NCBI GenBank assembly: GCA_006384855.1
Contig: VCJN01002769.1
Coordinates: 1-64,000 of the forward strand
Reading direction: 5' to 3'
Source: Tetraselmis striata
Lineage: Eukaryota; Chlorophyta; Chlorodendrophyceae; Chlorodendrales; Chlorodendraceae
DNA: 64,000 bases
In this document: positions 27,389 through 59,050 of the stretch, in pieces
Layout of the letters: the number at the start of each line of letters is the position of its first letter
Numbering within the stretch: position 1 is the first letter of the stretch
Notes under the pieces: generated by a model
Seen by the model: the letters and a program-made list of their open reading frames with translations, nothing else
The model's database searches: none
Told to the model about the DNA's origin: nothing
Translations under genes and position numbers: made by a program

Positions 27389-29524
27389 AGAGGAGGGGAG
27401 GGGAGGGAGAGAGGGAAGGAGGGGGAGAGACAGAAGGGGGCGGAGGGGGAGGGAGAGAGGCAGAGAGAGAGAGAGAGAGAGGGGGGGAGAGAGGGAGAGG
27501 GAGGTGGGGAGAGAGGGAGAGGGAGGGGGAGAAAATAATGTCAATATGGATGTGTCTATGTCGCCCACGACCCGCGTGTCGATCGACATCCCAAATCTCA
27601 AGAACGTGAAAGCTTCGCTTTACAGCACTAAAGCGCACGAACTCCTCTCTATAGCCCTTGTCACTTTTTAAGGGAGCCGGCCGGTGCGCACATCGGCCCA
27701 AGTATGCGTGGGTGCCCACACACTTGTTTTCATGCGGACACTTATTGTCACGAGCCTGCTCGCAACCTACATTAGCAGCGTTCGCTACAGCTCCGATACA
27801 ATCGTGTCTGACCTCTGTCAGGCAGGGCAGGGCGGTATTTGCAGTGCTCTTGCCAGCGCGCCGGCGCCTGTGCGCATCCGATGTGGCTCTGCGGGTGCGG
27901 ACCCGACAAAAAATAAGAAAACTGTTTAAGGAACGCAGCATCTCCTTGTTTGGTCCAATGTCAGACGAATACATCACGATACCACGATAAGAATGAAGAA
28001 CAGCCGCTCTAGCACCCCATTTCTGATAGCAAAAAAAAGGTTCTCATCGTCGGGTCGGCACCCGTACACGCAGTCACACGCGCACACACGTGTACTTAAC
28101 GACGCCACCTGCGCTGGTACCTGTGGGACACTGTCACCACTCCCGAGCGCAGGCGGTGCTGGCCCCCTCCCCCTCTCACCTACGAGCATGCCCCACCCCC
28201 CCACTGACCGGGCGCCTGCCTTGCCGGCCAGGTGGAGGGGGAGATCGCGCAGCTGCAGGAGCCCGCCCACCGGCAGCCGCTGCTGGACTCCATCGAGGAC
28301 CTGAAGGACCAGACGCAGCTGGCGATGGTGGAGCGGGAGCGCCTCCTGGATGCGCTGGAGTCCGCCAAGTGCGCCCCGCAGTGCCGGCTGATACATGACC
28401 ACATGCGCACACACCTGTGCCGGCGTGCGCTCACGCACATGACTGTGTGGGACCCACCGATTCACACAGACACAATAATATTACGTACGCGGACATCATA
28501 TTATATACCCATTCGCGGCCTTACATATACGGCCAACTATGTATGATATGCATATATTTGCGCATACGTGCACGAGCATAGCAAGGAGAGGTCAACATGT
28601 TGGTGTGCCTGCATCACGTATATCATAGAGACCTATTAACATATATACTTATGTTATATCGAACTACTGCTTAGTTACAGGTATAGTCAGAATTGGTACA
28701 TATGTATTAAGTCCATCATATGTATAATGTGTACTTATCCTATTTATGTTCATGTAATAAGATACCTATATATGATTATATCTATTTACGGTAAGAAGAC
28801 CACTGCCCTAATGAAATCCTGCCCTGCCTGCCCGAGGTCAAATCGAGTTGAACCTGTAGCGCAGCTATCGCAAATGTTCCTGTGTTCATTCCAGGTTGCT
28901 GGCGCACGCCCGATTCGAGGTTGATAATAAGGGTTCTTATCGGCGCGTCGACACCCCTACGGGAGCTCACCTGCGTGCGTGCTGCTGGGATGTAGCAATG
29001 ATGGCCTTTGAGGCCTCTCGGTCTTCTCTCTCTCTCTCTCTCTCCGTCCATCGTTGCACATGTGCGTGTGTGTATTCGTGACCGGCGATTGTCCGGCCCG
29101 ATTTTCTGGGGCGGCGCAGGCGCGGTCGGTACGCGCAGCAGGCGGAGCTGGCCCAGATGGAGCGCATCAAGAGCACGGACCTCAATGAGATCCGGAACAA
29201 GATCAGCGACGCGGAGACGCGGCTGGTGGACCTGCTGGCGGAGGAGCGGGAGCTGGGTGACAGGTCGGTGCTGGCAGCGCCGGCCCGCCCGCCACTCCCG
29301 CTGCTTCGTCTCCCACCCCGCCAGCCAGACCCAGGCGGGGGGGCGGGGGGGGGGGGGGGGGGGCTCCAACCATGTCACCCCCCACTCCCCCCCCCCCTGG
29401 TGCGCCCCACAGGATCGACGAGCAGCAGGAGCTCAACGTGGAAAAGCAGCAGGCGCTGGAGGAGAGGCAGATGGAGTGCGGCAAGCTGCAGACCGCGCTG
29501 TCTACGCTGGCGGGCGGCGGCTGA
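24701..29524 (+). CDS. Coiled-coil protein, 5' end not identified
   Basis: Six exons keep phase: 24701-24775, 25509-25669, 26640-26799, 28232-28368, 29120-29263 and 29413-29524 (stop TGA). They encode at least 262 residues. Almost the whole product is predicted alpha-helical coiled coil rich in Glu, Arg, Leu and Ala, for example VAQLEKEIADTVARRVELRL and AETRLVDLLAEERELGDR. There is no enzyme motif. Such rods usually serve as structural or scaffold proteins, or as tails of motor or tether proteins; the family is not identifiable. Donors include a perfect GTGAGT after 25669. An alternative exon at 24810-24953 would stay in phase but needs a 34-nt intron and was left out. The true start must lie upstream of 24701. 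The gene ends about 1.5 kb from the GBP gene, tail to tail. Confidence 0.6.
26164..26270. repeat. (CATATA)n hexanucleotide microsatellite
   Basis: About 16 units of a six-base CATATA/TACATA repeat with a few substitutions, inside an intron of the coiled-coil gene. Confidence 0.95.
27309..27535. repeat. (GA)n-rich purine tract
   Basis: About 225 nt of almost pure purine on the plus strand, grading from (GA)n to GGGAGA variants, in an intron of the coiled-coil gene. Long mirror-symmetric purine tracts of this kind can form triplex DNA. Confidence 0.9.
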
Positions 29525-31006: not shown

Positions 31007-33791
31007 TCAGCGCGCGTGCTGCTCCATGGCGTGGACCCAGTCGGCCTTCTTGGCGCGGTTGATGGCCAGCTCCGACACGAGGTCCTCCTTGCCGTGCTTC
31101 ACCAGCCAGTCCTTCATCTGCGGGATGGTCATGCTGCGCATGTCCGGCACGGGGGAGCCCATGTTGGGCTGCTCCAGGCCCGCGTCGGCCACTGCGGGTC
31201 GAGCCAGGACGGGGCCGGGGGGGCTTGAGCACTCACATAAAGGTGGACCAATACCACCATCTAAGGAACTCCAACATGAGCACCCGCAACCTCCGCGGCA
31301 CCCCGAGCACTCTGCCGAGTTGATACCAGTTGGCCAAACGCGAGACGCTGCGCTTCAAAATTGCTCGCAGTATATCTGCCGTAACACTTTGTATCCGAGG
31401 TGTATTTTGACCGGCTGCCGCAACTTTCCTTCCGCGCAAGGAGGTCGATCACAACGGCGCACACGAGGAGCGTACCCAAGGTGTGGTTACGGCAAACGTT
31501 GCACCAGACCACGACCAAAATGTCGGCCATCACACCACGCCCCATCCATGCCATAGCTTCCCCGCATGTCGTGCGCTCGCACATTAAAAAACAGGGGTTG
31601 CCCACATGCCCTCACTGAGTATCTCCACGGCCACGTCGTCGCGCGTTTCTACGGACTGGCGCGGTGCACCCTGCTGCGGGCCAGCGCGTGCTGGCGGGTG
31701 CCCGTGTGCGAGTGCGTGCCCCCCCCCCCCCCCCCCCCCCCCCCCGGGTATAAAATACCAGCTACTAATATTAACATTACTTAATAGTTGTTAATAGTTT
31801 TTAACATTACTTAACAGCTTGCTATTAGTTGTTATTGCTATTTATAACAACTAATGATACATACGTCTAACCTCTAACCAATCCCCGTACCATTGATGCA
31901 CAGGGTGCCGGGGCGTGAATGAGGAGATAGCTACGTTGGCCTGCGGAGGCTCCGCCCGTCGCACGGCAATGCGGACCCATCCCATCAAAGGCGGTCGGGT
32001 CAGGGGCCGCCCCTTCCCTGATGCTGGGTGAAGCCGGTTTGGCAAAAACAGCGCCCTTGGTCTCGGCACTCCCCATCCCCATGCCCATGCCACCCCCCAG
32101 AGCCGCGCGGTGGCAGGCAGGCACGGCGCGCACTTGGGCTGTGGAACTCGTCGGGCTGCGGCGACCTGCCCCGGGGCGGCGGCGATCGCGCCGCGGCGCC
32201 GCCCGCGGAGGGCGCCTCCCACTGCCCGAGGCGCCGGTTGAAGTCGCCGGCGGCCTCGTTCAGCCCGGCGCGCGCCGCCTTGGCCTCCGCCTCCGCCTTG
32301 GCGGCGCGCGCCGCCTCCGTCTTGGCGGCCATCTGCGCGGGTCGGGGAAGCGTGGGGGTCACGTCCCGCCACCGGGCGCTGGCGGACTTCGCGCGGTACA
32401 CATAAATGCACACGCACACACGCCGGAGTGGTGCATGCCCCGGTGTGTTGTCACTCGTCCCCTGATAGATACCCACACGCGCCCGGCCACGCGACTCTGA
32501 TGGCACAACGGGGCGAAACCGACGACCTTTTCATTGTGAACCTCTACCAGTGCCGCCACACGGAGCAGCACGCCACCCCCTCTGCCGGGGATTCCCGTTC
32601 CTGTCCGGGTTCACGACCCCCGAATCCCAAACCTCCAAACCCCGAAGTTGCGTTCCGCCCTCCCCACTGGATGGATGGCCAGTGTTCGGTGGAAACGTAC
32701 CTTGCCGGCCTTTAGTTTTCGTCACCTTATCACTCGGTTGTTACCGAGGTGTGGTTTTTTCGGACCATCCCAGCCCCTACAACGTAGTAAGCCCCTATTT
32801 AAGGCAATGGACATATCCAAGCCTTAAAGTACTGTGCTGAGCGGTAGGAGGCAACGAAGGTGTTGGTAATTACCAGATATATTTATAATTACCTTATAAT
32901 TATCCTACCGCTCAGCACAGTACCCTAAGGCTTGGATATGTCCATTGCCGTGAATAGCCGCCGCGCACGGGCAGTACCGGCCGCCGCCGGTCGGGCCGGT
33001 CGTCGCCGTTAGTCAGGTCTACGGGGCGGGCATGGCGCGAAGCGCCGAGCCCGCCGCGTGGAACTGAACCGGACGCCGGACGCCGTCGTTCGTGCATCAA
33101 CGGACGCCGGGCCCCGGGCCCCGGGTCGGCGGACGCGGGGCTGTAAAATGTACGACTACTACGATTGATCCTTGCAGCTCCCTGGGTTATACACTCCTGC
33201 AACGGGTCTACCTGTTTCCTGATAATTATCTGGTAATTACGTAATTGACAACACATTTGTTGCCTCCCACCGCTTAGGACAGTACTCGAAGGCTTGGACA
33301 TGTTCATGGTCACAACTACGGGTGGATGTGCGCGCATCGTTGTGACATACAACATCGCCGTTGTACTTAAGGAGCCAGGGGGAAATGACCAATATACATG
33401 TATCACCAGCCGTTATTACCAGCCCGTGTTAATCACCAAGGCAAGGCGAGTCGATTACCGCTAACCACCAACACAGCCTTCCACCGGACACTGTGGACCC
33501 CAGTTATCCACGCTTGTCACCGTGTCCCCGCGCCGCACGCCATCGCGGGTGACGGCCAGGGTGGCACAGAGGTGCGACTGGACGCCGTCGCTGGCGGCAG
33601 GCTCATGCTTGCACAACCAAGTCACAAGGCCGTTGCGGATTCATCGGGAACGGCGTCGCGAGTTCGAACGCCGCAGGCAACGCCATCTGGAGCAGTGCTA
33701 GACGGTCCTTCGAAGTGCGACGGCACTGGTACCACTTCCGCGTTCTCAGCAATATCAAACGTGTACCGGATATCTCCTGACGTATTGCAGT

Positions 33792-33858
<67 letters not shown>

Positions 33859-34528
33859 TGTGTGTGTGAGAGAGTCCGGGGAGGGGGGGGGGGGGGGGGG
33901 GGTCCTCTATGGGGTTGCAATCGCGCAGCACTTGACTCCAAGGCAGTGGGAGCGTGTGAGGTGGAATGTGTAAATGGGTGTGTTGGGCAGGACCGGGCGG
34001 GGGGGGGGGGGGGGGGAAACTCCTCTATGGGCTGTTCCTCTATGGGGTCACAACCGCGCAGCACTTGACTCCAAGGCAGTGGGAGCGTGTGAGGTGGAAT
34101 GTGTAAATGGGTGTGTTGGGCAGGACCGGGCGGGGGGGGGGGGGGAAACTCCTCTATGGGCTGTTCCTCTATGGGGTCACAACCGCGCAGCACTTGACTC
34201 CAAGGCAGTGGGAGCGTGTGAGGTGGAATGTGTAAATGGGTGTGTTGGGCAGGACCGGGCGGGGGGGGGGGGGGGAAACTCCTCTATGGGCTGTTCCTCT
34301 ATGGGGTCACAACCGCGCAGCACTTTACTCCAAGGCAGTGGGAGCGTGTGAGGTGGAATGTGTTGGGCAGCGACCGGGCCGGGGGGGGGGGGGGGGGACC
34401 TGAGCCTGGGAGGCGCGGGCCTCCGCCTCATTGCGCGCCTCGATGGCCGACAGGCGCTCGCGCTCCGCCTTCTCCGCACGCTCCTGGACGGCGGCGCCGC
34501 AGACAGTGTGTGTGTGTGTGTGGTGTGT

Positions 34529-34559
<31 letters not shown>

Positions 34560-36407
34560 TGAGGGGGGTGAGGCCCAGACTTGTCCTTGTTTCTGTCCTT
34601 CCGTGTTGTGATTAGCACCTGCAGTACCCATATGTACTAAACCCTAAAATACGTACCAAGGCATGAACCCACAAGGAGGTGGCTCTATGAAGACGATGCT
34701 GTGAAATCGAGTTAATCACTTCCCATTGTGTGGGGGGTAATGTACATCTCCCCGAGGGCGGTCCATTGAGCCCATCGGAACCTGAGGCGGACCACAAAAT
34801 GTCCCGGCTCCCAAAGGGGGGGAAGAGGGGGGGGGGGGGGGGGGGGGCGGGCGCACCCGGTACGCGCGGATCTCTTCCTGCCCCGCGCTGCCCATGCGGC
34901 CCAGCGACTCGAGCTCCTGCTCCAGGGCGCGGCAGCGGTGCTCCGCATCGATCAGGCGGCGCTCCTTCTCGTTCAGCTGGCCCTGGGCGCGCGCCAGCTC
35001 CGCCCGCGCGTTTGCCATCTGGATGAGGCCAGCGCGGACATCCCGGCGAGGCGGTCAGAAGACCAGCAGCGCTCCCGGGACGAAATGTACAAAACATGGC
35101 AAACAGGGCAAAATGCGCGCATCCACCATGAGAAGGGAAGGTTTATATTGCGAATCCTCACAAGCCGTTCAGAAGCCAACGCTCCCCATGCACATCCGCA
35201 CTTATAACCTCAACATCCCCACCTATGCCCAAATACACTGTCCCATTAAATACCGGTCCTAAACTCTTTTGCACCATTGAGTGGAAAATTCGGTACTCAA
35301 GGTACATTTCGAGATAGTGCAATAAAACATTGTGCCTTCTCTCCGCACTTTTGTAACCTTAACATCCCCACCTACGCCCAAATACACTTCCCCATGAAAT
35401 ACCGGCCCTAAACTCTTTCGCACCACGGAGTGGAAAACTCGGGACTCAAGGTACATTTTGATATAGTGCAATACAACATTGTGCATTCTCTCCGCACTTG
35501 TAACCTTAACATCCCCACCTACGCCCAAATATACTGTCCCATTAAATTGCGGCCTTAAAAACGATAAACTCTTTTGCACCATTGAGTGGAAATTTCGGTA
35601 CTCAAGGTACATTTCGACATAGTGCAATACAACATTGTGCCTTCTCTCCGCACTTTTGTAACCTTAACATCCCCACCTACGCCCAAATACACTGTCCCAT
35701 TAAATACCGGCCCTAAACTCTTTTGCACCATTGAGTGGAAAATTCGGTACTCAAGGTAAATTTTGATATAGTGCAATAAAACATTGTGCCTTCTCTCCGC
35801 ACTTGTAACCTTAACATCCTCACCTACGCCCGAATACACTGTCCCATTACACACCGGCCCTTAAAATGATAAACTTGTTTCCACCCCGGAGTTGAAAATT
35901 CGGTACTCAAGGTACATTCTGAATAGTGTGATAACACAGAAGGCCTTCTCTCCGCACTTGTAACCCCAACATCCCCACCTACACCCAAATACACTGTCCC
36001 ATCAAATACGGGCCCTAAAAAAGATAAAATTGTTTGCACCACAGAGTGGAAAATTCGGTAATCAAGGTACATTTTGATATAGTGCAATAAAACATTGTGC
36101 ATTCTCTCTGCGAGGGCGCAGGGTGCGCTGATGGTGAGCCTACATAAACAGGTGAGCAGGGACCTATTCACAGCGCACACACATCCGGCAACATCAAGGG
36201 TGGGGGAAACACCTCTGCGCGCACGCCCACGAGCTGTGCCTCCAGGTTGGCCGCCATCTCGCGCTGCTCGGTGTCCTTCTGCGCCAGGGTGGCGTGCAGC
36301 TGCAAGAGGGGAAGGGGGGGGGGGGGGGGCACAGGTCTCAGGGCAGCACCCAAAGCACGATTAGTTTGAGTACAGGAACTGATGAGAGTACGACTGTAAA
36401 GGGGGGG

Positions 36408-36448
<41 letters not shown>

Positions 36449-39400
36449 CCTCCCCGCACCGCACCTGCTGCTGGTAGACCTCTGTGTTGTTGCGGATCAC
36501 CTGCTCTGCAGCTGTCAGCTTGGCCTTGAGCGCTGCAGTCTCCTGCGCAGCGGGTGGGGGACCAGCGCAGCGGGGGGGCAGCGTGGCGCCTTGAGGGGGG
36601 GACGAGGAACATGTGGTGAATGGGGTAGGTCATTCGATATTAGGGTTAGTCTTAGGGTAATGGACTACATCATTCGGTTAAGATGGGACGGATGCGTGAC
36701 GTGTGCGACATTCCCCTTCCTGGTCAATAAGGGTCTAGAAAGCCCTAAATAATCCTGGCCACCTTAGGGTGTTCAAGTTACCCTAATAGAAGCCCAGGGC
36801 ATGTGCCCCCTTTCAATACTCCGCCCCCGGCCCCCCCCCCCCTGCCTGCCCCGGCAGCCGCGCTCCGTCTTCTCGTCTGGTTTGACAACCTTGCGCGTGG
36901 CGTAGGCAGCCTCCTCCGCGGCGGCAAGGCACTGCCGGCCCTCCTCCGCCTCCTCCGCCGCCGCCCGGGCGCGCGCCTCTGCAGCCTCAGCGTGCGCAGC
37001 GGCGGCCCGCGCCTCCTCCCCCGCGGCGGCGGCGGCCGCGTTGGCCTCGGCTGCGGCGGCGTTCGCCTCGCGCGCTTCCCCGCGCGCCACCTCCGCGTCC
37101 CACTGCGCCGCCTGCGCGTCGGCGCCACGCGCGGCCGCCTCGGTGCGCGCCACCTCCGCGGCCGCGGCCGCCGCCTCGGCTTCCGCCGACGCTGAGCGCC
37201 GTGCCTCGGACGCCGCGGCCTCCGCCGCCAATCGACCGGCCTCCGCCTTGGCGGCCGCGCCCTCCGCCTCGCGCACTGCCGCTGCCGCGGAGACCTGGCA
37301 CTCCTCCGCCGCAGCCTTCGCCTCCGCCGCCTCGGCGCGCGCGGCGTCGGCGTCCTCCAGAGCCACTGCCGCTGCCCGTGCGCTCGCGGCCGCCTCCGCC
37401 TTGGCGGCCTCCGCCATGCCCAGCGCCTCGCTGCGAGCCTCCCCGGCCTCCGCCACCTCCTTCGCCGCCGACGCCCGGGAAGCCTCTGCCGCCGCCTGCG
37501 CGGCCCTTGTCTCGCGCACCGCCTCCTCTGCCCGTCGCTCCGCCGCCGCCGCATCGGCACGCGCCGCATCCGCCTCCGATGATTTCTCCGCCGCCGCCTG
37601 CCGGGCCGCCCGGGCTTCCTGGCGGGCGGCGTCCGCCTCGGCGCGCGCAGCCTCCGCCTGCGCTAGCGCCTCCTTGGCATCGCGCCGGGCGGCGTCGGCC
37701 TCAGCGCGGGCTGCGTCTGCCTCACCCAGTGCTTCTCCGGTCGCCCGCTGCGCCGCCGCCGCTGCCTCCAGCGCGGCACCCGCCTCGGCCCGGCTAGCAG
37801 CCGCTGCGGTACGCGCCTCGTCCGCCTCCGCCAGAGCAGCATCGGCACGCGCCGCCGCGCGGTCCGCGTCCGCCTTGGCGACCTCTGCCTCGGCGCGCAC
37901 CGCCGCAGCCTCGGCCGCCGCGCCCTCGGCGTCCGCCAGCGCCGACTGCGTTTGCCGCAGGTAGCCCTCCGCCTCCGCCAGTGCCTCCCCCACCGCGGAC
38001 TCCGCGCGCTGCCGGACGGCCGCTGCCTCTGCACGCGCTGCCTCTGCCTCCGCACGCGCGGCAGCCGCCTCCACGCGCGACTCCTCCGCAGCAGCGCGCT
38101 CGACAGCAGCTTCTTCGCGCGCGGCCTCTGCAGCCTCGGCGGCCGCTTCGGCCCGCGACCGCTCGGCACGCGCCGTCTCAACCGCCGCGGCCGCCTCCGC
38201 GCGCAACTCCTCTGCCTCGGCCCGCGCCGCTTTGACCTCGGCGCGGGCGGCCTCTGCCTGCCGGCCCGCATCGTCCGCCAGCGCAGCGCCAGCTTCCGCC
38301 TCGGCGCGCGCTGCGGCGGCCTGCGAGCGCGCCGCGTCGGCCTGGGAGCGGCTGGCAGCGGCCTCTGCACGGCACGCGTCCGCCTCCCGCTCCGCCGCCT
38401 CGGCGCGCGCCTGCGCGTCCTCAGCGCGGGCGGCCACCTTGGCAGCCGCCGCCGTGAGAAGGCCACCAGCGGCCAGAAGACTCACTCCAGGCGCACGACA
38501 GGGCAGCTCCGCCGCAAGCTGCGCTAAGGGACCCCCATCTATGACCTACCTATTAAGCCTAACGTGCCTGCTAATGTGCGTATGAGGGCGGAGAGAGGGG
38601 AGGAGAGGAGAGCGGAAGCTATTAGGGGGAAGGGGGAGGGGGCTACCTTGCGGCCCTCCTCCTCCACCTCGGCCCGTTTGCTTTTCTCGCGCTTGGAGAT
38701 GTCCTGCAAACACATTAGGGGTCAAGGTGCATGAGTGACTCCCCAACGGGTTTCAGCAAGGCACAGCCACAAGGGTCCAACATCATGTCATGGCATCAGC
38801 TGGCGCAAACATGCGCTTTAATTCAGTGTGGCTGCTGCCCCCCCCCCCCCCCCCCCCCAAACACACACACACACCACACCACTAACCACAGCATATGCAA
38901 CCAGGCAAGACGGTGCCTGCTTCTGGTATCTCAAAGTCGCTCCACATTCTATGCTCTCATCGCTCCCTCTAGCACTGTTTTAAGCAGCTTACATTCCGTT
39001 GGTTCATATGATAGAGCGGTGTAACAGTTTGATTGCACATATTAACGACCAGACAGCAATCCAGGTTCAGGCTAGGTTGCCCTGCAAGTTGCGCAGCCGC
39101 TTGGCAGAGATGGCACCTGGTGCTCCTTCAAGGGAGCCGCACTTGTGTGGGGGCATAACCAGCACGCTCAGGCAGCCGGCGACACCCGCAGCGCCGCCAT
39201 AGGGCAGGCCTCAACGGCATTTTCATGTGCCAGCCTGGACGATTGATGCCACAGTGAACGGTTTGCATCGCAGGGCGTGGCGCACCTCCAGCGTGGCGCT
39301 GAACGAGGTCTTCATAAACTCCTCCAGCCGCTTCCACTTGGTGGGGCCGACCGCCTCGCTCGAGTTGCCGTAGGCGCTCATGAAGGCGTTGAACTCCTCC

Positions 39401-41193
39401 GAGATGCTGTCCATGCTCATGCCCTGCCGCGTCATCTGGTGCAGCCGGTTCTGCGCCGCGCTGAGCATCTGCTCGCACGCCAGCTCCGCCTGCGCCAGGC
39501 GCTTGTCACGGAAGTTGGCGAAGCGCGACTCGCATGCAGACATCCAGCGCTCCCGATGGGCGTTCTGCGCCAACGGGAAGGGGGCCAGGGTGCGGCACAC
39601 ACCCTCAGCACCGTTCAGTGAGCCAACTACACAGTGACAGGCGGCTGCGAGCGAGCCATTGGGGGCCAGGCAGAGGGCGGCCCACACCTTGATGCGGTCG
39701 TCGCCCACCGCGATGTCGGCGTACACGGCGCCCGCGACCTCCAGGCAGCGGCGGTGCTCCTCGTTGAGCTGCTCCAGCTCGCCGCCGCAGCCGGTGTTGA
39801 ACGACTGGCTGTACGCCGCCTCGGCGGCCTCCGCGCCGCGGCGGCACTCTGCCTCCGCAACACCCTGCAGCAGCGCGTGGAGCGATCGTGTGCATGCAGA
39901 CACAGGGGGGGGGGGGGATCCTTGTATTAGCAGCAGCACACGCCACTCTAGGATGGCCAGGCTTAAGACCGCCAACAGCTACCCAGACACTGTGTGACAG
40001 AGAGAAAGAGAGGGAGAGGAAGATATGGAAGCAAAGAGGGGGAGAGAGAGAGAGGCTCTGCGTCGCTGTGCAGTCCCACACGCACTATGCGCACTCGCTC
40101 ACATCCACATACAGTGCACGCCGGCGAGGGACTGGACTGGCTTGCGTGATTGTGAGGTTCTCAATTGCCCATGGTGGCACCTATCTCAGGGAAGCCATGC
40201 TTCGAACGACATTGCATCACCACACCCGCACCTTGCAATCACAACAGCGCTCGGATAGAAACGGCCCGATACACAAAGACGGATCTGTGTGCCAGGGGGT
40301 AGAACATAGTGGAGCATTTATAAATACTAATACTGATTGAGCTCCGGGCCCGGCCTTCAGCCGAGCCAATTGGGGCCGGGTGATTCCCTTTAGCCAACTC
40401 TACCATACCAGGAGCTCCGAGGCACTGCTGATGCTGGCGATGCTTGACACTTGACCGGGAGCGCTATGAATTGGCCGAGACCATCCCATCCCCGCATCCA
40501 TCCATCCATCCATCCATCCATCCATCCTTCTCCCTCCCCGTATAAAGATGTACGTAGATATAGATGCATCCTGAGCGCACCTGCCAGGCGGTGGAGATGC
40601 ACGGCACGGCGCCGTTGTTGATGGCATCCACGTACGCCTTTGTGATCCCCGCCAGCATGGGCCCCGTGAGCGTCATGCTGCCCATGCGCTTGGGCTGCCC
40701 GCGCTGGAAGATGGCCTTGGTCAGCGCCGCGAGCTGTGCGCGGAACTCGGGGCGCAGCTCAGACGAGTCTGCCGTCTCCAGCCGCTGCAGCAGCTTCTCG
40801 TCGTTGACAGGCCGGACCTGGGAAGGGCGCACACAGCAGGGCCCCGTTAGCGCTGCGTCGCCGCGGCTGGTCCGTCCAGCCGCTCACCCGGCCGGGCGCT
40901 CGCACCAGGGTGAAGCACTCGCGGTCTGGGAAGAGGTGCTTGATGGAGGCGCGGATCTGGTTCTTGGCCTCCACGGAGGGGCCGCTGCCGCCGACGGGGC
41001 GCAGCGCGGTCTCCAGGTAGTCGCGCGGCGTGAGGTCCACGCCGTCCTCCTCCAGCTGCAGGTAGAAGTCGCGAAGTAGCCAGATGAAGGAGGGCGTGAA
41101 CTCGCCCAGCTCCCAGTCATTGCTGCTGGCCTCCCTGCACATCCATGCCACACTCGCTCATTGGGCGGCTCCAACCCCCCCCCCCCCCCCCCC

Positions 41194-41252
<59 letters not shown>

Positions 41253-42172
41253 CCATAAAACAGAGCAGTTCTCGCCGGGAATGAGCTCTATGTATTGTCC
41301 TGCTTCTGCTTCCGGGTGCTCATCAGTGCTTGACAGCGGTTGGCGAGACACCCGCCGAGCCTCCGCCACATTCACACCGCCCAGTGTGCGGGCACGAGGC
41401 AGCCGCACACCCGCACAGGGGCTCAGAGCCAAAGCGCACCTGCCGCCCTGTGCGCGCACGCGGATGTGGCGTGTCATCTCCGTCACCAGCGACAGCCGGT
41501 CCAGCGCCGCCTCGTCGATGCCACCCATCTGGTTGTACACAAACAGCGACGAGAGCAGCACCGCCAGGGAGAATATCTGTGTGCTGTACTGCCCGGTCTG
41601 CGGGTGCGCAAGAGAGGAGGGGGGGGGGGGGGGGGGGGTTGGTCCAGTTGTAATCACGCGGCATGCACAGATGTGTATCTTTGGGACGGCCCAGGGGGGG
41701 GGGGGGTGCACCTGGTCGTAGGCGTCAATGCCTTCGGTGTCTAGCAGCACCTACACGCAAGAGCGGGTGGTGAGAGGGGGGGGGGGGGGGGTCAACTGGC
41801 TTGTTCAGATGAAGAAGTCCGATTTGCTCTCGGAAAGATACGGGATTCAGAGGGAGGGGAGGGGGGGGGGGGAGGGGGGCTCACCATGTGGTAGGGGCTG
41901 CCGTCGGGAGCGGTACGCGGCACAGGTGCCGACCACATCCAAAGGCCCTTGGTGCAGGGGCGATGTGTGGCGGCCACGCGGAAGCCGCTGCTCTGGCCCA
42001 GCAGCTGGTTCAGGATGTAGCTCTTGCCCTGCCGCGCGCGGCCGCATACCGCCACCACGCCGACGGGCCCGCGGTGCGCCGACAGCGTAGCCAGCGCATC
42101 GTGCCCGACCTCGAACTTGCCAGTGGCCGCATTGAAGCGGATCAGCTCCTCGGGGTGCGCCTGGCCTGCCAT
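31007..42172 (-). CDS. Guanylate-binding protein (GBP) GTPase with giant Ala-rich coiled coil
   Basis: Large dynamin-superfamily GTPase; relatives act in membrane or condensate assembly and immunity. Fifteen phase-consistent exons: 42172-41885, 41750-41712, 41597-41440, 41134-40906, 40817-40581, 39864-39688, 39564-39286, 38703-38647, 38518-36890, 36542-36465, 36299-36213, 35018-34857, 34483-34400, 32332-32134, 31191-31007. They give 1295 residues. Visible motifs are the P-loop GRARQGKS (44-51), switch PCTKG (72-76), DTEG (100-103), TLVRPV (237-242), and the helical-domain match PCISTAWQ near 310. Residues 489-1031 are one exon of Ala-rich heptads. More coiled coil follows, then a short helical end (TIPQMKDWLVKHGKEDLVSE) that resembles a SAP-type motif. 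The ATG at 42172 begins the family match; the frame stays open upstream to an ATG at 42733, so a longer start is possible. The donor after exon 9 (GTTGTC) is weak. Introns hold tandem repeats and a foldback element. No CaaX box is present. Confidence 0.88.
32803..33309. mobile_element. Foldback element with nested inverted repeat, in a GBP intron
   Basis: Arms at 32803-32848 and 32903-32949 are near-perfect inverted repeats (about 46 bp, containing 'caatggacatatccaagcc' and 'tactgtgctgagcggtagga'). They enclose an AT-rich spacer. A third, more diverged inverted copy lies at 33240-33309. It matches the left arm over a longer stretch that includes 'gaggcaac' and 'aattaccagata'. So the outer element (about 507 bp) seems to have TIRs of about 70-80 bp, with a GC-rich interior and an extra internal arm. 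No protein is encoded. Confidence 0.7.
33795..33868. repeat. (GT)n microsatellite
   Basis: A 74-nt run of TG units with one interruption (TTTG), within the GBP intron between exons 13 and 14. On the transcript strand it is (CA)n. Confidence 0.95.
33902..34380. repeat. Four tandem units of about 130 bp, each with an internal poly-G tract
   Basis: Units begin with 'tcctctatgggg' at 33902, 34036, 34165 and 34295. Each contains 'cgcgcagcactt', 'ccaaggcagtgggagcgtgtgaggtggaatgtgt' and an 'accgggc' plus G tract of 14-20 nt. They are nearly identical apart from the tract length, so the array is young. The last unit abuts the GBP exon 13 donor, so the poly-C after that 5' splice site belongs to the repeat. 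Confidence 0.9.
34506..34543. repeat. (GT)n microsatellite
   Basis: A dinucleotide run followed directly by a G tract (34544-34559), in the intron upstream of GBP exon 13. Confidence 0.9.
35201..36112. repeat. Six-unit tandem repeat (147-156 bp) in a GBP intron
   Basis: Units begin at 35201, 35348, 35497, 35653, 35802 and 35957, each starting 'ctt(tt)gtaaccttaacatccccacctacgcccaaatacactg' or close to it and ending 'ttctctccgca'. Unit lengths are 147, 149, 156, 149, 155 and 156. Two length classes differ by a small insertion near 'aaaacgataaac'. Units diverge by roughly 5-20%, so the array is moderately old. It fills most of the intron between GBP exons 11 and 12. Confidence 0.95.
36401..36447. 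repeat. Exceptionally long poly-G tract
   Basis: About 46 G with a single C interruption near its start, in the intron between GBP exons 10 and 11. It reads as poly-C on the transcript strand, starting about 17 nt after the 5' splice site. Confidence 0.9.
36890..38518 (-). repeat. Heptad-coding minisatellite forming GBP exon 9
   Basis: A 1629-nt exon encoding 543 residues made almost entirely of seven-residue units such as AEAARAE or AEADAAR, which corresponds to a 21-nt DNA period. Alanine appears to make up about half of the residues, with Glu and Arg filling most other sites. The opposite strand is also open because of the repeat structure, but that frame is a shadow. The array is diverged enough that units are not identical, which suggests selection has kept the helix rather than recent expansion. 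Confidence 0.85.
40496..40528. repeat. (ATCC)n tetranucleotide microsatellite
   Basis: Eight tandem ATCC units within the intron between GBP exons 5 and 6. Confidence 0.95.
41195..41249. repeat. (AC)n microsatellite next to poly-C
   Basis: A 55-nt AC run preceded by a C tract at 41176-41193, in the intron between GBP exons 3 and 4. On the transcript strand it is (GT)n followed by poly-G. Confidence 0.95.
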
Positions 42173-52821: not shown

Positions 52822-55800
52822 TTACATGAGCTAGCTGCAGAAGGCGATCAGGAAACCACCCGAATAGGCAATAGAAAATGTCCACTACAGCAGTTGCGAG
52901 GTGGAAGCAGCACCAGAAGAGGGTGCGGAATGAGCACGGGCAAACGCATCAGGCTTGGCCGTCTGCACTCCGGCAGAGAGAATGCCGCCCAAAGTACCAT
53001 GCACGCAAGCATATACTCGCTGCAACAACCCCCGCCGCGTGCGCGACAGGTGGTTGCGGGCTGGCTGGCAACAAAATTTCGAAGAGCCTAGACGGATTGA
53101 CCACGAAGGAAGCATGAAGTCGGGGCGGAAGGACCGCCAAGCAAGGAAGTTGCGCACAAGAAGTAACACCGCGAAGATGTAGACCACCGTTAAAGCGGAT
53201 TTTCCGAGGCGGCCGCGGTCTTCAACCACAAAAGGGTAGTACCGGTGAACACCCTGCACCGGGGCGGAAGACGCCCGGTCCGCCGCTAGCTGGTTGCGCT
53301 CCGCCCCGGTCGCCGCGATCCTCAGGGTGCACCAGCAGGGGTCGTTGCCCCAAGTGGGGGTCGTGGAGGACACCCACGCAAAATCGATCATGCAACTACC
53401 GCACTACGCCGCCCCCCCCACCCCGCCAGCGTCAAACCTGACGGCCGCGAGCGGTCCGCTGGGCGCAGCCCACTCGTCTCAAGGGTCAAGTCGCCGACTC
53501 CCGAGCGGTCCCGGTCGAGTACCGCCCCCGCTTCGATCGCCATGGAAGCCCACCCATTTTTCAAAGCGATATGCATGCGGTGCTTGTAGTTCGCAACGTG
53601 GCAGATGGGCAGATGATCCACGACGAAATCCGTGGCATTCCGGCTCGAGCCAAGCCATAAGGGGTCAATTCCACACGTGTGGCCATGACATGTGACAAAC
53701 ATGGAACTCCCACGCGGGCGAAGGCCCAGCCTCCGCGCACCGGCGGCCGAATAAGCAGCATGGGGAATCTTGCGGGCTGACTTGAGATCCGACTGGAAAA
53801 ACGATAGGGAGCCCGGCCCGCGCCGCACGCGATGTACACGCGCCGGGTATCAAGGCGCGAGGCCGCGGCACCCATACGCTATAAGCCAAGAGCGAGGGCC
53901 ACGAAGTCACGCAAGCGAATCGCACGGCTGAGGTGGCGTTGGACAACCATGGTCGTCGTTGGTTGATCATCGGAGGCAGCGCACGTACCCGTACCCGAGG
54001 GCGGAGCTGTAGTATCGCTTGGTTGCGGTTCTAGTAGGGAAGGATACCACTGACGAAGGGGGTGCCACTAATTCGCGGGGCGACGGTGTCTTGAGAGCTA
54101 CATAAGCGCATGAAGTAACGGTATTGGCAGTACTCATACCACCGATAGGAAGCGAATGTTAGGCAACAGAGGGAGCCTCACCAGTACCAACTCCATGGGG
54201 AGTGGCCGTAAAAGGAGATGTGGTGACGCGCATCCTCCGCTAGTGCTCGTATCCGTACGGGCCGTAGTATCAGCTGACGGATCCGGTGCGGCGGTGGTCG
54301 TAGCATTACCGACCGTAAGTAACTCGAAGATCTCGTGGGCGTGCCCGTTCGCGCGGCGCGTGCGCGCTGCACATCTGCTTGTAGTAACGTAGTAAGGGCC
54401 CGTATAGTCTCGTGCATGCGGCGCGTCTCGCGCGCCCATGGCAAAGCACTCGTAGCCACGGACGACACCTCGGCGCGCACCGCCTCGTACAATAAGGGGC
54501 CGAGGGCGGGCCCGTACTCCCGTACCAGCTTTGGCAGGACAACCGATTGTGCGGAATAAAACGCCGCGGGGACCTCAGCCTGCAGCAAGGCCATATTCAA
54601 ACCGCCAAACTCCGCGGGCATACTCCTCTGGACGATCGCAGCCTCCATGCGCGGTGTAGACTGGCCGCAAGCGTCCAAGCCAAGCAAAGAAAACGCAGCC
54701 GAAATGTTGGCGGCGTCCACGGCCTCCAAGAAAGGGTCCAGCTCCGACGGCGGCATCATGCGGCTGATGAGGAAGCCGGTCTGCCGCACCGCGCATACTA
54801 CCAGCAGCCGCATGGGCCCATGGTGGCAGCCGCATCCCGACGTGCCAAAGGAGGCGATGCGCTCCAACAGTGCGGCGTGGGCCACCCGGTGCCGCCCCAA
54901 CGCATCGGTCATCCACCTGGGGTAATGGCTAATCGGAGCACCCATGTACACGGCGCCATCCTGGACATGGTCGTCGGCCGGGGTTCGAAACCCTCCCGGG
55001 GCCAACTTCGCCCGCACTGCCCGCAACTCAGCCTCCCTGTCACCGGGGTAGCGAGCGTACCGCGTCTTACTGTCCTTTACTACCAGTCCGACTTTGAAAA
55101 GCTGCGTACAATAATCCTTACTCGTCAAAAACACGCGGAACGTGAGCCGCGGCAGTAGCCGCGCCGCAATCATCTGCGAAACTCTGGCAGAAAGTATCAG
55201 CGGCGGTCTGAGCCACTACCGCTTGCACCGGGCCCGCGATAGCGAGGCAGAAATATAGCGGGACCAATACATCACCATGCATGGCGCACACCCGTACGAG
55301 ACTGTAGGGTGGCGCGCATAGTACCGGGATCATCCGGCGCATAGTAATACATGTCGGTAGGACGATCGTACAACATCCGGAAAAAAGGATCAGGCCATGT
55401 GGACGCGGGCGCTGAAGCAAGCCGTAAAGTATCGCACCCCGGGATACCTCATTGAAGGCATTCCGAATATCCATGGGTAGTAGCCCTTTCCCGCCAGTAC
55501 CACGCCCGCCGAAAAGCTGCAGCGCCACCCGCATGCTCATATACGCCGTCTCACGGCCAGCTCCCGACTAAAAGCTGCGTTGCACGACCGGGCCCATGGC
55601 CTCCCGCGCATCCGCACCCACCTGCACGAGAGCGTGGGCGGAGGCCAGGCGCACCAGCACGGAGCCGACGCCAAGCGGGCGTACTCGCAGCGGCTCGCCG
55701 GTCTTCGCCCGCTCCTCGCGCGGCGGGGTTGTCCTTGTGGAGCGCAAAGACGGTGCTGCTCGCCAAAAAAGCCGCAGTGCGGGAGTCGCACCGCCCCGCT

Positions 55801-57989: not shown

Positions 57990-59050
57990 CCCGCGCTGGT
58001 CGGCGCCATCAGCCCGTCCATGCACCATGTGCCCCTAGGTTGGCTCCGCGGCATGGGCACGCAGCTGGCGGGCGCCAAGGGGCCACCACTGCACGTTGTG
58101 CCTCAATTACCTTCGCAGCCCCGGACACGCAGTTGGTCAGCGCCATCATGCCGCCACTGCACCCCATGCCCCGGTCGCTTCCGCGGCGTGCCCATGCAGC
58201 TGGTCGGAGCCGTCAGGCCGTCACATCACCTTTTGCCCTGGCCGCTTCCGCCGCATGCGCAGCAGCGGGTCGGCGCCAACGGGCCGTTCCTGAACACTGC
58301 GCCCATGTCGCCTCCGCGGCATGCGCACTCAACTGGTCGGCGCCAACGGGCCGCTTCTACAAAAGGTACCTCAGTTACTTTCGCAGCCCCTCGCACGCGA
58401 ATTGTTGGCGCCAACGGACCGCCACTGCATCATGTGTCCGGGCATGCAGCTGGTCGGCGGCTGCGGGCCGGCGCCGCACGTTGTGCCTCGATTGCTGTCG
58501 CAGCCTCGGGCACGTAGATGGTCGGCGCCGTCAGGCCGGCATTGCACCATGTGCCATGATCGCATCCACGGCCGGGGAAGCAGCTGGTCGATACCGTCAG
58601 GCAGTCCTTGCGCCATGTGCCAAGGTCGCCTCCGCAGCTTGCACACGTAGCTGGTCGGCGCCAACCGGCCGCCACTGCACCATGCGCCCCGGTCACGTTC
58701 GCGGCATGCGCACGCATCTAGTCGTAACCCACGGGCCGTCACTGCACCCTGGGCCCTAGTCGCTTCCGCGGCCAAGGCACGTAGCCGGTCGGCGCCGTCA
58801 GGCCGTCCCTGCACCATGCGCCGCGGTCGCCTCCGCGGCATGCGCACGCAGCTAATCGGCGCCAACGGGCGGCCTCTTCACAAGGTGCCTCTCTTTCTTC
58901 GCAGCCCTAGGCACGTAGCTGGTCGGGGCCAGCGGGTCGCCACTGCACACGAATGCCTCGGTTGCTTTCGCAGCCCCATGCACGCACCAGCTGGTCGGCG
59001 CCAACGGACCGCCACGGCATCGTGTGTCCCGGTCGCTTGATGAAGGGGGG
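57990..59050. repeat. Minisatellite with a unit of about 68 bp, some 15-16 copies
   Basis: The consensus runs 'ctggtcggcgccaacgggcc', 'gccactgcaccatgtgcccc', 'ggtcgcttccgcggcatgcg' and then 'cacgcag'. Units vary by substitutions and a few short indels. Because 67-68 is not a multiple of three, all frames cycle through the same peptides (for example LVGANGP and WSAPTG), which explains the long open frames on both strands. The array ends at a G tract (59046-59069). Confidence 0.9.

Follow-up and report, generated by a model that had tools for sequence, protein, structure and literature searches.

The stretch of DNA considered here, positions 1 to 64,000 of contig VCJN01002769.1 of the green alga Tetraselmis striata (hereafter the window, meaning all 64,000 nucleotides), carries on its minus strand a gene that runs from 42172 down to 31007. 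Its 15 exons encode a protein of 1,295 residues and a stop, in which a guanylate-binding protein (GBP) GTPase is followed by a long alanine-rich rod and a small C-terminal unit predicted to be helical. Judged by its domain profiles and G motifs, the protein belongs to the GBP large GTPases. All 14 introns are of the GT/AG type, the reading frame is unbroken across every junction, and the phase is 0 at every junction into exons 5-14. This structure was rebuilt independently from the raw sequence and agrees with the 15-exon model of an initial annotation, including the same limits of exon 9 (residues 489-1031).

The GTPase part

The N-terminal part of the protein is recognized by two Pfam profiles: GBP at residues 19-279 (227.4 bits, E 2.3e-67, cut-off 21.1) and GBP_C at residues 284-464 (85.2 bits, E 7e-24, cut-off 24.3). 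The second match covers profile 1-182 of 297, that is, the proximal part only, and the rod replaces the remainder. In a search of PDB sequences, human GBP1 aligns to residues 15-343 with E ~1e-63, while the atlastins are far weaker, the best of them reaching E 1.1e-12. The G boxes are intact in the human GBP1 alignment, comprising GRARQGKS, CTKG (with Thr74, the Thr75 equivalent), DTEG and LLRD; moreover, Arg47 of GRARQGKS is aligned with the Arg of GLYRTGKS in human GBP1. No plant GBP is found among the 27 PDB sequences listed, and animal GBPs are the closest solved relatives. Scans of viral and prokaryote contigs, which reach close relatives only, confirmed none for the 488-residue GTPase part.

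At the DNA level, exon 1 (41885..42172; all exons lie on the minus strand) encodes residues 1-96 from the start codon at 42172, matches GBP profile 3-70 and contains the P-loop GRARQGKS (residues 44-51, 42020..42043), placed by the human GBP1 alignment. Exon 2 (41712..41750, residues 97-109) holds the G3 box DTEG at 41741-41730. The G domain continues through exon 3 (41440..41597, GBP profile 93-140) and exon 4 (40906..41134, GBP profile 152-221), the latter with LLRD, of which RD are residues 183-184. Exon 5 (40581..40817) contains the end of the G domain and the start of the GBP_C helical region (37.1 bits), which extends over exon 6 (39688..39864) and exon 7 (39286..39564), where the GBP_C match of the spliced protein stops at residue 464. 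Exon 8 (38647..38703) is a charged 19-residue linker with KREKSKR.

The donor of exon 4, CTG/GTGCGA (the slash marks the exon end; score 6.1, leave-one-out), was chosen because it yields FTLVRPV. An alternative end at CGG/GTGAGC, which scores 7.9 with the full donor matrix, was rejected: by eye it inserts VRAPGR ahead of the aligned RPV, although this version itself was not aligned.

The alanine-rich rod

The GTPase part is followed by exon 9 (36890..38518), which consists of 47% Ala, 16% Glu and 11% Arg and encodes heptads from about residue 525. Same-residue identity is 0.36, 0.37 and 0.41 at lags 7, 14 and 21, whereas every other lag up to 22 gives 0.21-0.31; because these three lags exceed all the others, the heptad periodicity goes beyond chance. 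A heptad register learned on residues 665-860 and then applied to residues 525-1031 covers these 507 residues with only 4 breaks. Position a is 93% Ala and position d is 70% Ala with a further 11% of larger hydrophobics, position e is 46% basic and 4% acidic, and position g is 55% acidic and 10% basic. The held-out blocks follow the same register, with block 525-664 scoring 27.3 (best of 100 shuffles, -18.9) and block 861-1031 scoring 0.9 (best of 100 shuffles, -24.2), although such a match is no proof of selection because repeats of common descent would match too. By its residue pattern, this layout is that of a coiled coil with an alanine core and g-to-e salt bridges.

Structure prediction agrees with this layout in part. 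An AlphaFold2 model of 542 of the 543 exon 9 residues, built from the single sequence, contains four long helices with a mean pLDDT of 74, which supports a helix and not dimerisation. An alpha helix rises 0.15 nm per residue, and simple arithmetic gives about 81 nm for the 543 rod residues. The rod is a naturally occurring case of a coiled coil of great length in which alanine holds most a and d positions.

A different explanation is that slippage in a GC-rich genome generated the rod as a by-product, which is tolerated without having a specific role. The DNA of exon 9 does contain tandem arrays, short and degenerate (18-42 bp, 67-86% matches), and these, together with the high alanine content, fit such an origin. 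Against it stand the ordered pattern of basic e and acidic g positions, the few register breaks and the agreement of the held-out blocks, within the limit on selection given above. Additionally, a 329-residue piece of the rod matches only itself in the genome at E 0.001 (scores were computed for 122 of the 1,038 first-look candidates, and low complexity may hide some), so no second copy was found in that search. We regard the slippage explanation as unlikely. The initial annotation had described a complete G domain with its helical region and a long heptad rod over residues 489-1031; the former is borne out by the profile scores, and the latter by the lag identities, the learned register and the predicted helices. 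Its description of the exon as minisatellite-like is fair but loose, because at the DNA level there are only those short, degenerate and partial arrays.

The head of exon 9, its first ~36 residues, shows no heptads by eye and is a weak point of the gene model. Two changes to the exon were tried and rejected, namely an optional 48-nt intron in the head (GGA/GTGAGT, score 0.1) and an extension of the exon to GTAACT (score -0.7).

Beyond exon 9, exons 10 (36465..36542), 11 (36213..36299), 12 (34857..35018) and 13 (34400..34483) are coiled-coil-like by eye, and in exon 14 (32134..32332) the Ala/Glu-rich stretch ends and is followed by a Pro/Gly/Arg-rich linker. Two of the introns between them are repetitive. 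Units of 149/305 bp (6 and 3 copies, 84-86% matches), arrayed in tandem at 35195-36108, take up the greater part of the intron that separates exons 11 and 12. In the one that separates exons 13 and 14, a 129-bp tandem repeat (3.5 copies, 97% matches) at 33903-34363 adjoins a 74-bp TG run.

The C-terminal unit

Exon 15 (31007..31191) encodes the C-terminal tail and the stop. In an AlphaFold2 model, the last 60 residues form a compact three-helix unit (residues 1252-1295, 31141-31010) with a pLDDT of about 92 over residues 21-50 of the 60. The nearest solved folds of this model include SAP-like domains and two SAP domains, those of Tho1 (2wqg) and Hcc-1 (2do1), and none of the matches is significant. 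A viral fold library gives 38 matches, all with E >1, of which 7 are named Rho N-terminal, LEM-like or HeH/LEM, names that we take to denote SAP-like folds. The tail thus resembles SAP, HeH and LEM domains in its predicted helix arrangement over ~40 residues and differs from them in having a further helix (residues 35-43 of 60) between helices 1 and 3.

Sequence profiles do not follow the predicted fold. SAP (PF02037) is absent from a Pfam scan at E 10, and HeH/LEM (PF12949) reaches 16.3 bits, below its cut-off of 28.9, over profile 2-17 of 35, which is the first helix only. By sequence, therefore, the tail is not a SAP member. The earlier description of a SAP-like end holds for the predicted fold, at a level short of significance, and fails for both profiles. 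NCBIfam gives no match to the tail; the 13 matches among PDB sequences, the best at E 0.05 (BrxA), are unconvincing; and a scan of viral contigs, which reaches close relatives only, confirmed none. Within the genome the tail matches only itself at E up to 10, as the rod piece does at its own threshold, so there is no paralog or allele for comparison.

The predicted unit could be read in two ways. It may dock on chromatin, or it may be a SAP-shaped protein-binding domain that does not bind DNA, in which case the end of the rod would dock on a protein partner. The latter alternative is a serious possibility that we place somewhat below the probable.

Continuity of the gene

The gene from exon 9 onward could in principle belong to a separate transcript, with a short GTPase gene ending in intron 7, or alternative polyadenylation could yield a short isoform. 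The motif TGTAA is the algal poly(A) signal, and its use in this alga is putative. Intron 7 has this motif at 38993 and intron 11 at 35851; it is missing between 31007 and 29500, the next one on the same strand beginning at 28679. Moreover, the donors of exon 8 (GTAGCC, 2.6), exon 9 (GTTGTC, 2.6) and exon 11 (GTGTTT, 1.5) score low, on a scale where one in four of the region's 624 GT sites scores at least 2.2. On the other hand, the 2.3 kb gap without TGTAA is unremarkable because 39 such motifs occur on that strand in the whole 64-kb window. The uniform phase 0 into exons 5-14 also speaks for a single gene, as does the exon 9 open frame, in which the first Met does not come before residue 856. 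The G+C content at third codon positions (GC3) is 0.89-0.98 in exons 11-15, higher than in any of 68 intronic open stretches (at least 26 codons, same strand, introns 9-14), where the maximum is 0.81; exon 10, at 0.77, is not distinct from them. Finally, plant GBPL1/3 proteins are described, in excerpts of PMC12489281, as holding their coiled-coil extension in one chain. A separate transcript is thus very unlikely, and the single gene for GTPase, rod and tail that had been proposed is supported by the continuous phase and by the GC3 of exons 11-15.

The TGTAA at 38993 lies ~230 bases past the in-frame stop that follows exon 7, and a short isoform without the rod is conceivable.

Other GBP-type loci and genomic context

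The assembly comprises 224 Mb in 2,903 contigs. Among PDB sequences, its rbcL matches 1gk8 of Chlamydomonas best, in keeping with a green-algal host. A GBP search of the assembly at E 0.001 finds two loci, the window gene and one on contig C225. In the second locus (L007:1542-8583, corresponding to ~83542-90583 of the contig, minus strand), L007:7846-8583 is a GBP GTPase exon that scores 81.5 bits. About 5.8 kb beyond it, on the same strand, positions 1542-2072 form an open frame with strongly hydrophobic helices, whose 19-residue mean hydropathy reaches 2.38. This locus may represent a membrane-anchored gene of the AtGBPL2/atlastin type. The RHD3 GTPase profile has its matches on yet another contig, C2629 (138.2 bits). 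The GBP set found here is small, a rod type plus a type that may be membrane-bound, and offers a simpler setting than Arabidopsis with its three GBPLs.

Many SAP matches and two weak RuBisCO-like matches occur as pairs of equal or near-equal score on different contigs (C749/C2052, C474/C1624, C2075/C1057, C890/C2473 and others). In places, the assembly may contain two haplotypes or recently duplicated sequence, although only one copy of the window gene turned up. Elsewhere in the window, a minus-strand open frame of 345 codons at 54178-55215, without a Pfam match at E 0.1, is by eye a candidate fragment of a mobile-element protein, and several degenerate 67-bp tandem repeat arrays (68-76% matches) lie at 57995-59019.

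Proposed cellular location and mechanism

We infer a nuclear role and GTP control for this protein, and we consider it somewhat probable that it acts as a chlorophyte scaffold of the GBPL1/3 type, a GTP-paired, rod-spaced tether at the nuclear periphery whose distal end rests on a nuclear partner or on chromatin. In such a mechanism, GTP binding would pair two G domains, which has been reported for both human GBP1 and AtGBPL3. With its alanine a and d positions and its acidic g residues opposite basic e residues, the rod would zip into a thin two-stranded coiled coil of ~80 nm, or up to ~110 nm if exons 10-14 are included. The distal SAP/HeH-like end would dock on its nuclear partner or on chromatin. 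At the nuclear periphery, the protein would thereby serve as a long tether with pairing tuned by GTP, much as AtGBPL3 links the nuclear basket, the nucleoskeleton and chromatin.

Several points weigh against this scaffold. In excerpts of PMC12489281, GTPase activity is described as unnecessary for the role of AtGBPL3 in nuclear architecture and for its localisation at the nuclear envelope, which weakens the case for a GTP-controlled tether; PMC9629626 argues that the GTPase is essential. A simple pattern scan for nuclear localisation signals (NLSs) finds only short basic clusters at 395, 452, 473, 1104 and 1280, whereas the AtGBPL1/3 clade is reported to have one or two C-terminal NLSs (excerpts of PMC12489281). 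The TPR/Mlp profile of the nuclear basket has no match in the genome, although exon-split coiled coils can be missed by such a search. The tail fails the SAP profile and is not among the 35 SAP matches in the same genome, and the models of tail and rod were built from single sequences. In addition, the gene model was computed from the DNA sequence, and the clade assignment rests on architecture and described features rather than on a tree.

A cytoplasmic, membrane or cytoskeleton scaffold closer to animal GBPs, with no nuclear role, would accord with the lack of a strong NLS and with the animal origin of the closest solved relatives. It is at odds with the C-terminus, which ends in EQHAR and has no CaaX, and with the hydropathy scan, in which no clear membrane span appears (the highest 19-residue value, 1.67 at residue 500, falls in the doubtful head of exon 9) and C-terminal transmembrane helices of the AtGBPL2/atlastin type are absent. 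Furthermore, long coiled-coil extensions mark the nuclear plant clade (PMC12489281). Such a cytoplasmic scaffold is rather unlikely.

Comparison with known GBPs

The nearest described counterparts of the window protein are the plant AtGBPL1/3 proteins. According to a 2025 review (PMC12489281), these are nuclear proteins of 1000-1100 residues with a GTPase, a helical domain, a long coiled-coil extension and a disordered region, while the AtGBPL2 clade has ~600 residues and membrane helices; plant GBPs are without the CaaX end of HsGBP1/2/5. Self-association of AtGBPL3 depends on nucleotide and involves the GTPase domain, and the chromatin binding of the protein is 'most likely' through SMC-like domains (same source). 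In PMC9629626, AtGBPL3 is assigned to the nuclear basket and described as binding the nucleoskeleton; in yeast, its C-terminal region, made up of the helical domain and the disordered coiled coil, interacts with CRWN2 and, weakly, with Nup82. Plants with an allele truncated at residue 696 of 1,082 show the same stunted growth and sterility as those with two alleles that stop earlier, which loss of the transcript could also explain. GBPs of Chlamydomonas reinhardtii are already included in the tree of that paper, so an algal GBP relative is not new as such.

The window protein shares with the AtGBPL1/3 clade the GBP GTPase, the helical domain and the long coiled-coil extension, as well as the lack of CaaX and of a membrane span. 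It differs in its length (1,295 residues, compared with 1,082 in Arabidopsis GBPL3), in a rod of such alanine content within a single 1.6-kb exon, in the SAP-like end, which the excerpts of the literature cited do not mention for GBPL3, and in the lack of a strong NLS. Human GBP1 (1dg3, 1f5n) corresponds to the window protein over the G domain and the start of the helical region; it has 592 residues in the solved chain, no rod, and a CaaX end. The AtGBPL2/atlastin type shares the GBP-superfamily GTPase, with atlastins at E ~1e-12 and weaker, and differs by its membrane helices, a role that may fall to the contig C225 locus in this alga.

The C-terminus of AtGBPL3 may carry a stretch similar to the tail (L-T-V..LK..L.K ... 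N-K-K..I..LYE), and we treat this as a lead only. A text search found no papers carrying such peptides, and among the matches listed none joins GBPL3 with a SAP domain, a SAP motif or the term SAP-like; guanylate-binding protein and SAP domain co-occur as terms in PMC6170816, on foot-and-mouth disease virus by its title. Tentatively, and short of an even chance, the SAP/HeH-like end could be an ancient, overlooked module for binding chromatin or a partner that is common to all nuclear GBPs of the green lineage, including AtGBPL3. These proteins would then be tethers spaced by a rod, carrying the GTPase at one end and hooking onto chromatin with the other. If shared with AtGBPL3, this small separable piece could serve to test how nuclear GBPs hold chromatin.

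Overall, the comparison suggests that the window gene most probably encodes a local form of the nuclear GBPL3 type of plants and not a new kind of system. In calling the scaffold unusual, the initial annotation goes too far as regards its kind, since nuclear GBPs with coiled-coil tails are an already described plant clade (PMC12489281, PMC9629626). What is unusual here is the alanine-rich rod and the SAP-like end, and the latter is the part that could surprise a specialist.

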